A stretch of 64,000 nucleotides of DNA from Haemophilus influenzae (lineage in GTDB: Bacteria; Pseudomonadota; Gammaproteobacteria; Enterobacterales; Pasteurellaceae). The stretch lies in contig NZ_LS483411.1 of the NCBI RefSeq assembly GCF_900475755.1, positions 620,001-684,000 on the forward strand, read 5' to 3'. The position numbers and the translations under genes were made by a program. A model generated the notes under the pieces. It did not search any database. It had not been told where the DNA came from and saw only the letters and a list, made by a program, of their open reading frames with translations. Positions 52,814 to 56,971 of this stretch are shown here, piece by piece; positions within the stretch are counted from its first letter, which is position 1; each line of letters opens with the position of its first letter.

Positions 52814-53050
52814 ATGCTTGCTAAAGTGTTTCAAAGTGGTAACAGCCAAGCTGTTCGGATCCCGATGGACTTTCGTTTTGATGTCGATACCGTAGAAATT
52901 TTCCGAAAGGAAAATGGGGATGTGGTATTACGCCCAGTTTCTAAAAAAACAGATGATTTTCTTGCGTTATTTGAAGGATTTGATGAGACCTTTATTCAAG
53001 CACTTGAAGCGCGTGATGATTTACCGCCTCAGGAGCGAGAAAATTTATGA
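52814..53050 (+). CDS. vapB: Antitoxin VapB (AbrB/SpoVT-type)
   Basis: A 78-residue antitoxin with an N-terminal swapped-hairpin DNA-binding domain (AKVFQSGNSQAVRIPMDFRFD, VVLRPVSKK) and an acidic C-terminal tail that should wrap the toxin. A strong AGGAGG lies before the ATG. The last 4 bp overlap the vapC start (ATGA). I recall the Rd homologue as VapB-1 (HI0321). Confidence 0.93.
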   Translation: MLAKVFQSGNSQAVRIPMDFRFDVDTVEIFRKENGDVVLRPVSKKTDDFLALFEGFDETFIQALEARDDLPPQERENL

Positions 53051-53451
53051 TTTATATGTTAGACACCAATATCATTATTTATTTAATGAAAAATCGCCCC
53101 AAAATTGTTGCCGAACGAGTATCACAATTATTGCCTAATGATCGCTTAGTTATCAGCTTTATTACTTATGCTGAACTTATTAAAGGCGCCTTTAGTAGTC
53201 AAAATTATGAGCAATCAATACGAGCAATAGAATTACTTACTGAACGAGTAAATGTACTATATCCCAATGAACAAATCTGTTTACATTATGGCAAATGGGC
53301 AAATACACTCAAAAAACAAGGGAGACCTATCGGAAATAATGATCTATGGATTGCTTGTCACGCATTGAGTTTAAATGCTGTTCTTATTACACATAATGTA
53401 AAAGAATTTCAGCGTATTACAGATCTTCAGTGGCAAGATTGGACAAAATAG
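53047..53451 (+). CDS. vapC: PIN-domain ribonuclease toxin VapC
   Basis: A 134-residue PIN-domain ribonuclease that stops translation when free of VapB. Acidic active-site residues are visible: Asp6 in YMLDTNIIIYLM, Glu in ITYAELIKGA and Asp in NNDLWIACHAL. Many VapC proteins cut initiator tRNA-fMet, but the target cannot be read here. It overlaps vapB by 4 bp, ensuring coupled synthesis. All catalytic residues look intact, so the toxin is probably active. Confidence 0.94.
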   Translation: MIYMLDTNIIIYLMKNRPKIVAERVSQLLPNDRLVISFITYAELIKGAFSSQNYEQSIRAIELLTERVNVLYPNEQICLHYGKWANTLKKQGRPIGNNDLWIACHALSLNAVLITHNVKEFQRITDLQWQDWTK

Positions 53452-53998: not shown

Positions 53999-54688
53999 AT
54001 GTCCGATTCTCAAGAAATCCCTTATCACAACCAATTAAAAAATCGCTTTCGTGGCTATTTCCCCGTCATTATTGATGTTGAAACTGCAGGTTTTGATGCA
54101 AAAAAAGATGCGTTACTCGAACTAGCCGCCATCACATTAAAAATGGATGAAAACGGTTATTTGCATCCTGATCAGAAATGCCATTTTCATATCGAGCCTT
54201 TTGAAGGAGCAAATATTAATCCTGAGTCCTTGAAATTTAATGGCATTGATATTCACAATCCATTACGTGGTGCAGTATCTGAACTTGATGCAATCACGGG
54301 GTTATTTCAAATGGTGCGTCGAGGACAAAAAGATACGGATTGCCAACGTTCTATCATTGTGGCGCACAATGCTGCTTTTGACCAAAGTTTTGTGATGGCT
54401 GCTGCTGAACGTACCGGCGTAAAGCGTAATCCCTTCCACCCTTTTGGCATGTTTGACACGGCAAGTTTAGCAGGCTTAATGTTTGGTCAAACTGTTCTTG
54501 TTAAAGCCTGTCTTGCTGCTAAAATCCCCTTTGATGGGAAACAAGCCCATTCAGCGCTATATGATACCGAACGCACGGCGGAATTATTCTGTTATATGGT
54601 CAATCATTTAAAAGATTTAGGTGGCTTTCCCCATATTTCTCAAATAGATGAAACAGAAAACACAGCAGAAAATCAGACCGCACTTTAA
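53999..54688 (+). CDS. rnt: Ribonuclease T
   Basis: DEDD-family 3'-5' exoribonuclease that removes terminal residues from tRNAs and other stable RNAs. The 229 residues (E. coli 215) contain Exo [12 protein letters not shown] (Asp and Glu), Exo II in [14 protein letters not shown] and Exo III in [14 protein letters not shown]. The C-terminal extension is acidic. The final residues TAL and the stop lie within a USS. The his-type leader starts 74 bp downstream. Confidence 0.95.
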
Positions 54689-54762: not shown

Positions 54763-54807
54763 ATGAACATTATCCGTCGTCACCATCATCACCATTCAAC
54801 TGAATAA
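54763..54807 (+). CDS. His-type attenuator leader peptide
   Basis: A 14-codon reading frame encodes MNIIRRHHHHHSTE, with five consecutive His codons, and is preceded by a good TGGAGA ribosome site. The design matches the hisL leader peptide of enteric his operons, where ribosome stalling at His codons signals shortage of charged tRNA-His. It is not followed by hisG but by a transporter gene. Confidence 0.93.
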   Translation: MNIIRRHHHHHSTE

Positions 54808-54826
54808 TCTTTCAGGTTTTTGGTGT

Positions 54827-54903
54827 GCTTGGAAGATTTCTTCCGAGCTGACTGGATAATAAAAATCTTACCCCTCGGAAGGCTACTTTCGAGGGGTTTT
54901 GTT
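54827..54903 (+). promoter_or_regulatory. Transcription attenuator with alternative hairpins
   Basis: Three mutually exclusive pairings can be read. Pause hairpin: GCTTGGAAG (54827-54835) with CTTCCGAGC (54840-54848), one G-T pair. Antiterminator: CTTCCGAG (54840-54847) with CTCGGAAG (54874-54881), perfect. Terminator: CCCCTCG (54871-54877) with CGAGGGG (54890-54896), followed by TTTTGTTTT. A ribosome stalled on the His codons would block the pause hairpin, favour the antiterminator and let transcription enter the transporter gene. Confidence 0.92.
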
Positions 54904-55001
54904 TTATTTATGATATAGGAGGCATTAATTTAGCGTTATTATTTATTCAATAAAAATTTTAAAGTAAAGTATTTATCATTTAATTTACAAGGAAAAACAC
55001 A

Positions 55002-56354
55002 ATGTTATCAAACCCCGTTGTTATCTCGATCATCGTTTTGCTGGCACTTAGTTTGCTACGCATCAACGTTATTATCGCACTGGTGATTGCTGCACTTACC
55101 GCAGGATTTATCGGTGATTTAGGTTTAACTAAAACCATCGAAACCTTTACAGGTGGCTTAGGTGGCGGTGCTGAAGTCGCGATGAACTATGCAATGCTTG
55201 GTGCGTTCGCTATTGCTATTTCTAAATCAGGTATTACCGATTTAATCGCTTATAAAATCATCACAAAAATGAATAAAACACCAACTGCTGGCAATTTAAC
55301 TTGGTTCAAATATTTCATTTTTGCGGTGTTGGCATTGTTTGCCATATCTTCTCAAAACTTACTTCCAGTGCATATTGCCTTTATTCCAATCGTTGTACCA
55401 CCGCTGCTTTCAATCTTTAACCGTTTAAAAATTGATCGCCGTGCAGTAGCTTGCGTACTTACATTTGGTTTAACTGCTACCTATATGTTATTACCAGTGG
55501 GCTTTGGAAAAATCTTTATCGAAAGTATTTTAGTTAAAAACATTAATCAAGTAGGTGCGACCTTAGGTTTACAAACAAATGTAGCACAAGTTTCTTTAGC
55601 AATGTTGTTACCTGTTATTGGAATGATTTTAGGCTTACTCACAGCCGTATTTATTACCTACCGTAAACCACGTGAATACAATATCAATGTTGAAGAACCA
55701 ACAACTAAAGATATTGAAGCCCACATTGCTAATATTAAACCAAAACAAATTGTTGCAAGTTTAATCGCAATTGTCGCAACCTTCGCAACACAATTAGTCA
55801 CAAGTTCAACTATCATTGGCGGTTTAATTGGCTTAATTATTTTCGTACTATGTGGCATTTTCAAACTAAAAGAGAGCAACGATATTTTTCAACAAGGCTT
55901 ACGCTTAATGGCAATGATTGGCTTTGTAATGATTGCTGCTTCAGGTTTTGCAAATGTGATTAATGCCACCACTGGCGTAACAGATTTAGTACAAAGCCTA
56001 AGTTCTGGTGTTGTGCAAAATAAAGGTGTTGCCGCATTATTAATGCTTGTCGTTGGTTTATTAATTACAATGGGTATTGGCTCATCATTCTCTACAGTAC
56101 CGATTATTACATCAATTTACGTACCTCTCTGTTTATCTTTTGGTTTTTCTCCATTAGCGACAATTTCTATTGTGGGCGTAGCCGCGGCTTTAGGAGATGC
56201 AGGTTCGCCCGCATCAGACTCAACATTAGGCCCAACATCTGGCTTGAATATGGATGGCAAACACGATCACATTTGGGATTCTGTTGTACCTACCTTTATT
56301 CACTATAATATTCCATTATTGGTATTCGGCTGGATTGCAGCAATGTATCTTTAA
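55002..56354 (+). CDS. Na+/H+ antiporter-family transporter, probable histidine transporter (YuiF-like)
   Basis: A 450-residue membrane protein with about 11-12 helices, of the NhaC/ArsB-like ion transporter group (repeated long hydrophobic segments, GSSFSTVPIITSIYVPLC and GDAGSPASDSTLGPTSGLNMDGKHDHIWDS near the C-terminus). The His attenuator upstream means expression rises when charged tRNA-His is scarce, so histidine import is the simplest role. I recall comparative-genomics work proposing YuiF-type proteins as histidine transporters; that is not verified here. AAGGAAAAACACA precedes the ATG. It ends in a terminator that merges with the priC ribosome site. Confidence 0.85.
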   Translation: MLSNPVVISIIVLLALSLLRINVIIALVIAALTAGFIGDLGLTKTIETFTGGLGGGAEVAMNYAMLGAFAIAISKSGITDLIAYKIITKMNKTPTAGNLTWFKYFIFAVLALFAISSQNLLPVHIAFIPIVVPPLLSIFNRLKIDRRAVACVLTFGLTATYMLLPVGFGKIFIESILVKNINQVGATLGLQTNVAQVSLAMLLPVIGMILGLLTAVFITYRKPREYNINVEEPTTKDIEAHIANIKPKQIVASLIAIVATFATQLVTSSTIIGGLIGLIIFVLCGIFKLKESNDIFQQGLRLMAMIGFVMIAASGFANVINATTGVTDLVQSLSSGVVQNKGVAALLMLVVGLLITMGIGSSFSTVPIITSIYVPLCLSFGFSPLATISIVGVAAALGDAGSPASDSTLGPTSGLNMDGKHDHIWDSVVPTFIHYNIPLLVFGWIAAMYL

Positions 56355-56361
56355 CGATTAT

Positions 56362-56386
56362 AATCCCCCACTTGGGGGATTTTTTT
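56362..56386 (+). terminator. Terminator of the transporter gene, containing the priC ribosome site
   Basis: AATCCCCC (56362-56369) pairs with GGGGGATT (56374-56381) around a 4-nt loop, followed by T residues to 56386. The priC ATG begins at the next base, so the GGGGGA ribosome site of priC lies in the 3' arm. Confidence 0.88.
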
Positions 56387-56971
56387 ATGACTGTTAAACA
56401 ACTTATCCAACGCTTAGATCAAAAAGTTCAACAACTTTATCAGAGCAACTTGCTGCAAGAAGAAAAAATCTTCGCCAAATTTGACCGCACTTTATTTAGT
56501 GAAAACGGACAAACTGTTGCCTTTTATCTAAAGGAAATTAATCAAACCCTTGATAAAATAAAATCCCTACAATCAGAAAATCCTGATCATTACATCTTCA
56601 TTACCAAACGCTTACTTGCCCAATGTACTGCGCTATCAGAAGCACTCACGCATAAAAATAAGCCTTTTATCATTAATACGAACCTCACTCCGCAGCCGCA
56701 AAAAAAATCTCAACATAACATTCATAAATTACCGCCAAGAGAACGCCTAGAAAAATATTACGAGGCACGAGAGCAGTTGAATAATCTTTATCGACAACAT
56801 AAAGATTTAGCACAAGCTGAAAAAAATAATGATGAAAAAATACGTTATGCTCAACTTGCAGAAGTTTATAAAAAACGCCAGCAAAAATGCCAAGAGGCAA
56901 TCGATCTTTTAGAAGAATATTTGGTGTTTAAAGAAGAATTAGAAAACCGTGAAAATACGGAAAATAGATGA
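56387..56971 (+). CDS. priC: Primosomal replication protein PriC (N'')
   Basis: Single-strand DNA-binding protein that helps reload the DnaB helicase at stalled forks. The 194-residue, highly charged, mostly helical protein starts MTVKQLIQRLDQKVQQLYQS; the YYEAREQLNNLYRQ and RQQKCQEAIDLLEEYL segments match the PriC pattern. E. coli PriC is 175 residues. Identification is by overall pattern and is moderate. The ATG at 56387 directly follows a terminator T-run. Confidence 0.8.
   Translation: MTVKQLIQRLDQKVQQLYQSNLLQEEKIFAKFDRTLFSENGQTVAFYLKEINQTLDKIKSLQSENPDHYIFITKRLLAQCTALSEALTHKNKPFIINTNLTPQPQKKSQHNIHKLPPRERLEKYYEAREQLNNLYRQHKDLAQAEKNNDEKIRYAQLAEVYKKRQQKCQEAIDLLEEYLVFKEELENRENTENR

Follow-up and report, generated by a model that had tools for sequence, protein, structure and literature searches.

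A histidine attenuator preceding a predicted histidine importer gene in Haemophilus influenzae and other Pasteurellaceae

Results and discussion

Organisation of the locus

The window analysed here is a stretch of 64,000 nucleotides of the Haemophilus influenzae genome (contig NZ_LS483411.1, positions 620,001 to 684,000), in which a gene for a YuiF/NhaC-type transporter lies between the genes for ribonuclease T and a PriC-like primosomal protein and is preceded by a complete histidine attenuator (Table 1). Because of the matching names of HI0325 and HI0326 in PMC3877243, we take the gene to be HI0325 of H. influenzae. A terminator-like site follows it and the gene therefore looks monocistronic. 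A hydropathy scan of the protein returned 25 overlapping segments, which do not fix the helix count, put at twelve in the initial annotation; a search of solved structures gave no relevant match, and similarity at the DNA level was sought in Escherichia coli genomes and none was found.

Two features on the upstream side lie apart from the attenuator. At its 3' end (54677-54685) the ribonuclease T gene reads ACCGCACTT, the core of the Haemophilus DNA uptake signal in reverse-complement orientation. Further upstream an overlapping pair of ORFs (52814-53451) resembles a toxin-antitoxin module, with a VapB-like antitoxin at 59.9 bits (cut-off 60) next to a PIN-domain protein at 71.5 bits. On the other side of the attenuator, the transporter gene starts 97 nt past the end of the Rfam match and the interval between leader and transporter contains no ORF of at least 60 aa. 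In relatives, the interval from the terminator to the transporter gene holds a possible second small ORF whose ribosome-binding site is good, for example MQRHHHYLFDNQKF and MRHLTLNQFSFMRPF (stretch compared at loci L037, L043, L046, L048, L050, L054, L056, L058, L062, L063, L065, L068, L070, L071, L074 and L075); in the window the corresponding stretch (54905-55001) keeps an AGGAGG with no ATG after it.

Table 1. Features of the attenuator-transporter locus (positions within the window; percentages are cells paired)
Feature	Position	Strand	Details
Ribonuclease T gene	53999..54688	+	upstream neighbour
Complete histidine attenuator	54763-54907	+	leader peptide, pause hairpin, alternative antitermination helices, terminator
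Leader peptide ORF MNIIRRHHHHHSTE	54763..54807	+	five consecutive His codons
Outer helix	54769..54860	+	54769-54775/54854-54860; encloses A:B and C:D; missing from the Rfam model
A:B pause hairpin	54781..54825	+	54781-54785/54821-54825 and 54800-54804/54811-54815; 86.9% and 98.2% (45 leaders)
Rfam RF00514 His_leader match	54783..54904	+	84.1 bits, cut-off 49, E 6.8e-12
B:C antitermination helix	54808..54836	+	9 bp; 54808-54816/54828-54836; 100% (45 leaders)
C:D hairpin, termination state	54828..54847	+	54828-54836/54839-54847; 94.6%
D:E antiterminator	54840..54881	+	perfect 8 bp; 54840-54847/54874-54881; 98.1%
E:F intrinsic terminator	54870..54907	+	12 bp, loop of 4, T-rich tail; 96.5%
YuiF/NhaC-type transporter gene	55002..56354	+	450 aa; PF13726 104.8 bits, PF03553 278 bits
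PriC-like primosomal protein gene	56387..56971	+	downstream neighbour, past terminator-like site 56362-56381

Structure of the attenuator

The leader ORF has a GGAG ribosome-binding site ahead of its ATG, and its run of five CAY codons (54781-54795) is unique within the window, absent from all 100 shuffles, and the sole such run found in a scan of the whole genome (1,834,484 bases). The region 54763-54907 folds at -58.4 kcal/mol (z = -8.24), and none of 200 shuffles was equally stable; within it, the terminator helix proper (54870-54897) has 12 pairs and a stability of -21.7 kcal/mol and is followed by TTTTGTTTT. Helices A:B, C:D and E:F make up the termination state, while B:C, which is the alternative to the C:D hairpin, and D:E make up the antitermination state. 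This is the six-segment design, A to F, of the classical attenuator, and B:C completes the set here. The initial annotation of this DNA had read a leader peptide, a pause hairpin, an 8-bp antiterminator and a terminator with a T-run, and had named as the regulated gene a Na+/H+ antiporter-family protein and not hisG; all four elements lie where it placed them, and the ORF downstream of them carries both antiporter-family Pfam domains. B:C and the outer helix are parts that it had not named.

Membership of family RF00514 is supported by a covariance score above the cut-off, a His-run ORF with a ribosome-binding site, and mutually exclusive helices that are conserved. A his-operon leader in the strict sense has hisG directly downstream, in place of which the transporter gene is found here. 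A promoter scan detected no promoter-like site immediately 5' of the leader, and the region contained 5 such sites against a shuffled mean of 7.7. The leader is predicted to control read-through into the transporter gene.

Conservation of the alternative structures

Over 45 distinct leaders, standard pairs account for 94.7% of termination-state cells and 99.1% of antitermination-state cells, and when one arm is shifted by 1 to 3 columns pairing is at most 60.8% and 66.4%, respectively. The case for attenuation is built on this retention of pairing in two incompatible states, as attenuation predicts. Covariation proper is limited. Two-sided changes occur at 6 pairs of the termination state, a number equalled or exceeded in 15 of 500 shuffles and compared with 7 when the structure is slid by -1, and at 2 pairs of the antitermination state, a number that 116 of 500 shuffles match or exceed. 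Counted as cells, two-sided changes number 13 and 14 for the two states, and these counts and the covariation scores are above all 500 shuffles; the termination structure slid by -1 has 18 such cells, compared with 13 unslid. The initial annotation had proposed a covariation check across Pasteurellaceae leaders; in those compared here, pairing is upheld in both states and two-sided covariation is limited.

The outer helix was assessed over 71 distinct rows, comprising transporter leaders, hisG leaders and E. coli; leader L165 was left out, its C:D hairpin being unmatched by the pattern. The two arms of one leader score 18.9 on average in their best pairing with each other, and 2000 re-pairings of arms between leaders never gave more than 15.3. 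Taken row by row, 45 of the 71 reach the 95th percentile of shuffled arms, and some rows pair best elsewhere. The E. coli row was misplaced by the pattern, and the helix is visible there by eye (GCGTTCA with TGAACGC). Across the family the outer helix is kept while its sequence changes. It probably stabilises the termination state.

Predicted substrate of the transporter

A relative of the transporter was found in Staphylococcus aureus by tblastn against plasmid records (46% match), and direct alignment shows it to be full length, with 46.2% identity over 448 residues (367 bits). The S. aureus gene is followed by a PaaI thioesterase gene and has Na+/H+ antiporter subunit genes near it, an arrangement that fits SAUSA300_0846-0847; we assigned it as 0846 through this thioesterase neighbour, as PMC10817146 pairs 0846 with 0847, and it is the apparent orthologue of the H. 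influenzae gene. Among the compared proteins of the H. influenzae genome that match the Na_H_antiporter family, the transporter is the closest to this S. aureus protein, the three others (L331, L333 and L334) reaching no more than 27.7 bits. In S. aureus, loss of 0846 almost abolished uptake of labelled histidine and complementation restored it (PMC10817146). The import reading thus does not rest on the attenuator alone, because the relation to 0846 is independent of the leader. The role in histidine import that the initial annotation had assigned to an 'antiporter' accordingly gains the support of a full-length relation to a proven histidine transporter, and a gene annotated merely as an antiporter receives a predicted substrate. 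For the Haemophilus protein itself, substrate, direction of transport and any coupling ion are predictions from sequence.

The Pfam name, and the designation of HI0325 as a 'sodium:proton antiporter' in PMC3877243, would suit an ordinary Na+/H+ or K+/H+ antiporter that is linked to histidine through pH or buffering and does not import it. A preprint, as discussed in PMC10817146, moreover attributes K+:H+ antiport to this S. aureus protein, and histidine may therefore not be the transporter's only activity. We consider antiport in place of histidine import improbable, however, given the near loss of histidine uptake in the 0846 mutant and its recovery on complementation, the normal growth at pH 4.5 of S. 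aureus mutants in five other antiporter genes (PMC10817146), and the presence of a histidine attenuator, which suits an importer.

Distribution of the leader and of histidine biosynthesis

HisG, IGPD (hisB) and histidinol dehydrogenase, the three families of histidine biosynthesis covered by our search, were not found in the genome to which the window belongs, which is a single contig with an estimated completeness of 100%; each was found in 13 of 14 control genomes. The organism is therefore apparently a histidine auxotroph, and its only histidine attenuator, the single His_leader match in the genome, apparently serves transport. The initial annotation had not seen this loss. Isolates of H. 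influenzae type f that have no his genes did not grow without histidine (PMC3928620).

Across 140 Pasteurellaceae genomes, we found His_leader in 133, the transporter in 139 and hisG in 104, the last being missing from 36. After one weak match (G098) was set aside, 138 transporter loci were used, and 57 of these have a His-run ORF upstream of the transporter. A covariance model made from the 45 distinct leaders returned the same 57 loci at 96 to 165 bits; these scores are not independent since the model was built from the leaders themselves, and the informative quantity is the gap to the other loci, where the best match is 23.1 bits at the 81 leaderless loci and 32.5 bits anywhere else (on the other strand at a leader locus). 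Leader and hisG occur together at 32 loci, leader without hisG at 25, hisG without leader at 71 and neither at 10. On a quick tree of 136 transporters, from which L167 and L168 were omitted as genes split over frames or contigs, leader state requires 7 changes and hisG state 17. An association between the leader and loss of hisG was considered and is not claimed: the raw counts look strong, with the leader at 25 of 35 transporter loci in genomes lacking hisG and at 32 of 103 in genomes that keep it, but an independent-pairs test on the tree could draw on just 4 pairs and gave a median p of 1.

In the order as a whole, 179 of 295 genomes have a match to the transporter, 24 within the family and 155 outside it. 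Neither His_leader nor our model matched at the 26 of the 155 outside-family orthologue loci that were searched (11 families), and the E. coli his leader was detected alongside; a His-run scan at outside-family orthologues found only frames within, downstream of or opposite to genes. As 81 of 138 transporters in the family and all 26 of those searched outside it are leaderless, the transporter can evidently do without the leader.

Constraint on the leader

When seven hisG-less Haemophilus genomes are compared pairwise, the leader shows a mean identity of 0.976, against 0.782 for the spacer and 0.692 for the third codon positions of the transporter gene, and it is the most conserved of the three in 21 of 21 pairs. 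Ten hisG-less genomes of the H. parainfluenzae type give 0.986, 0.936 and 0.819, the leader exceeding third positions in all 45 pairs and the spacer in 39 of them, and three genomes of the Aggregatibacter type give 0.845, 0.794 and 0.632 (codon-aligned). These pair counts are not independent tests, as pairs share ancestry, and loss of hisG is undated relative to the divergences. Constraint on the leader is not special to hisG-less genomes, for in the Rodentibacter type, which has kept hisG, the values are 0.865, 0.551 and 0.560 (12 of 13 leader-bearing genomes, with L042 left out).

The apparent loss of histidine biosynthesis from the H. influenzae genome might suggest that the attenuator is a non-working relic of biosynthetic regulation that has itself been lost. 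Three same-genus genomes that have hisG (G062-G064) speak against this, as each has two leaders, MNFICTYHHHHT with a long C:D loop at hisG and MNIIRRHHHHHSTE at the transporter; the transporter leader is therefore a locus of its own and no left-over hisG leader. In genera with at least one transporter leader, moreover, the leader is present in 25 of 25 hisG-less genomes compared with 32 of 41 that bear hisG, and its sequence is constrained where hisG is missing. A relic is accordingly very improbable. Least credible of all is that the hairpins, lying between the ribonuclease T and transporter genes on the same strand, mainly serve the ribonuclease T gene, as its terminator or as a processed small RNA, with no control over the transporter, since a plain terminator needs neither a His-rich ORF nor two conserved alternative helices.

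Other targets of the attenuator

In eight genomes of five genera, leaders above the Rfam cut-off precede a gene for a peptide-binding protein (SBP_bac_5) that matches DppA best in NCBIfam (G084, G032, G049, G050, G095, G090, G093 and G086; loci L181, L183, L184, L185, L187, L367, L368 and L369). The six of these genes scanned against NCBIfam score 704 to 801 bits, below the DppA cut-off of 1005, and 'DppA-like' is therefore the furthest permissible name. One of the eight genomes (G084) has no hisG, and in another (G093) the DppA-like gene is broken into several frames. The presence of attenuators before these genes suggests histidine-controlled peptide scavenging, and with it a wider histidine-scavenging regulon.

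Leaders were also observed before hisC in three genomes (G052, G051 and G054, above the NCBIfam cut-off), before a hisC-looking aminotransferase gene in two (G053 and G092, Pfam only) and before hisD in one (G005), at loci L030, L194, L195, L019, L191 and L186. In four further cases (G089, G090, G093 and G094; L188, L189, L192 and L193) unrelated genes follow a His leader. That at L189 belongs to the RhuM family, as does that at L192 by its similar start, and L193 is a GNAT acetyltransferase; no family was found for the remainder. These genes are possibly insertions just 3' of the attenuator.

Proposed mechanism

We judge it highly likely that this is a histidine attenuator of the canonical, ribosome-mediated kind and that the transporter under its control imports histidine. 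When histidyl-tRNA is ample, the ribosome would pass the His codons and reach the stop codon, A:B, C:D and E:F would form, and with E:F in place transcription would end ahead of the transporter gene. When histidine is short, the ribosome would stall at the His run and leave B:C and D:E to pair; with D:E paired there would be no terminator, the transporter would be made and histidine would be brought in. With biosynthesis apparently gone, the switch would thus govern histidine supply through uptake alone.

With less assurance, we favour a broader interpretation, in which the Pasteurellaceae attenuator is a scavenging switch independent of biosynthesis, which was placed on the importer within the family, has been maintained by selection while the his operon was lost repeatedly, and acts on DppA-like peptide-binding proteins in several lineages as well.

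Relation to known systems

The leader shares with RF00514 and the hisL leader of E. coli a His-rich leader peptide, a pause hairpin and mutually exclusive antiterminator and terminator; the hisL region of E. coli K-12 scores 131.6 bits with the Rfam model and 65.6 bits with the model built from our leaders. Unlike hisL, the Haemophilus leader precedes a transporter gene and not hisG, no hisG having been found in the Haemophilus genome. In a study of attenuators in proteobacteria, Vitreschak et al. are said to have predicted in 2004, from attenuators, that yuiF orthologues are histidine transporters. PMC9413887 cites that study.

The closest parallel on the side of the protein is SAUSA300_0846 of S. 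aureus, a YuiF-type histidine permease also called NhaC3, which is alike over its full length and for which transport has been demonstrated (PMC10817146), but whose predicted control is by the repressor HisR, in contrast to the attenuation predicted in Haemophilus. Histidine-responsive control of YuiF is likewise described in Firmicutes, where yuiF is under a T-box in the auxotrophs Alloiococcus and Dolosigranulum and under HisR in the Bacillales (PMC9413887); sensing there is by T-box or repressor, whereas in Haemophilus it would be by a stalled ribosome. Within the family, Arrc19 of Actinobacillus pleuropneumoniae is a further His leader from this bacterial family, detected as RNA by RT-PCR and Northern blot, which differs in lying before hisG and was examined there for presence, not for a response to histidine (PMC4986893). 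Histidine transporters, which the accessible text does not name, are also counted among RNA-controlled uptake genes in PMC3766115.

The doubt that the initial annotation had expressed about novelty was well founded, as histidine attenuators, the mechanism by which they act and histidine-responsive control of YuiF-type genes are all of kinds already known. Our literature search, drawn mostly from passages of papers and with the 2004 prediction outside its scope, found no description of histidine attenuation at this gene in the Pasteurellaceae, and no experimental proof for the Haemophilus transporter or its leader. Within those limits, what seems new is the persistence of a constrained leader in hisG-less genomes, together with attenuators before DppA-like genes.

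Conclusion

The locus offers what appears to be a clean case of textbook biosynthetic control outliving its pathway. The predicted substrate matters in a group in which histidine auxotrophy occurs, as growth tests of H. influenzae type f showed (PMC3928620), and in which 36 of 140 genomes lack hisG. If the attenuator is indeed a scavenging switch, histidine-starved cells would turn on import of the free amino acid and perhaps also of peptides that contain it.
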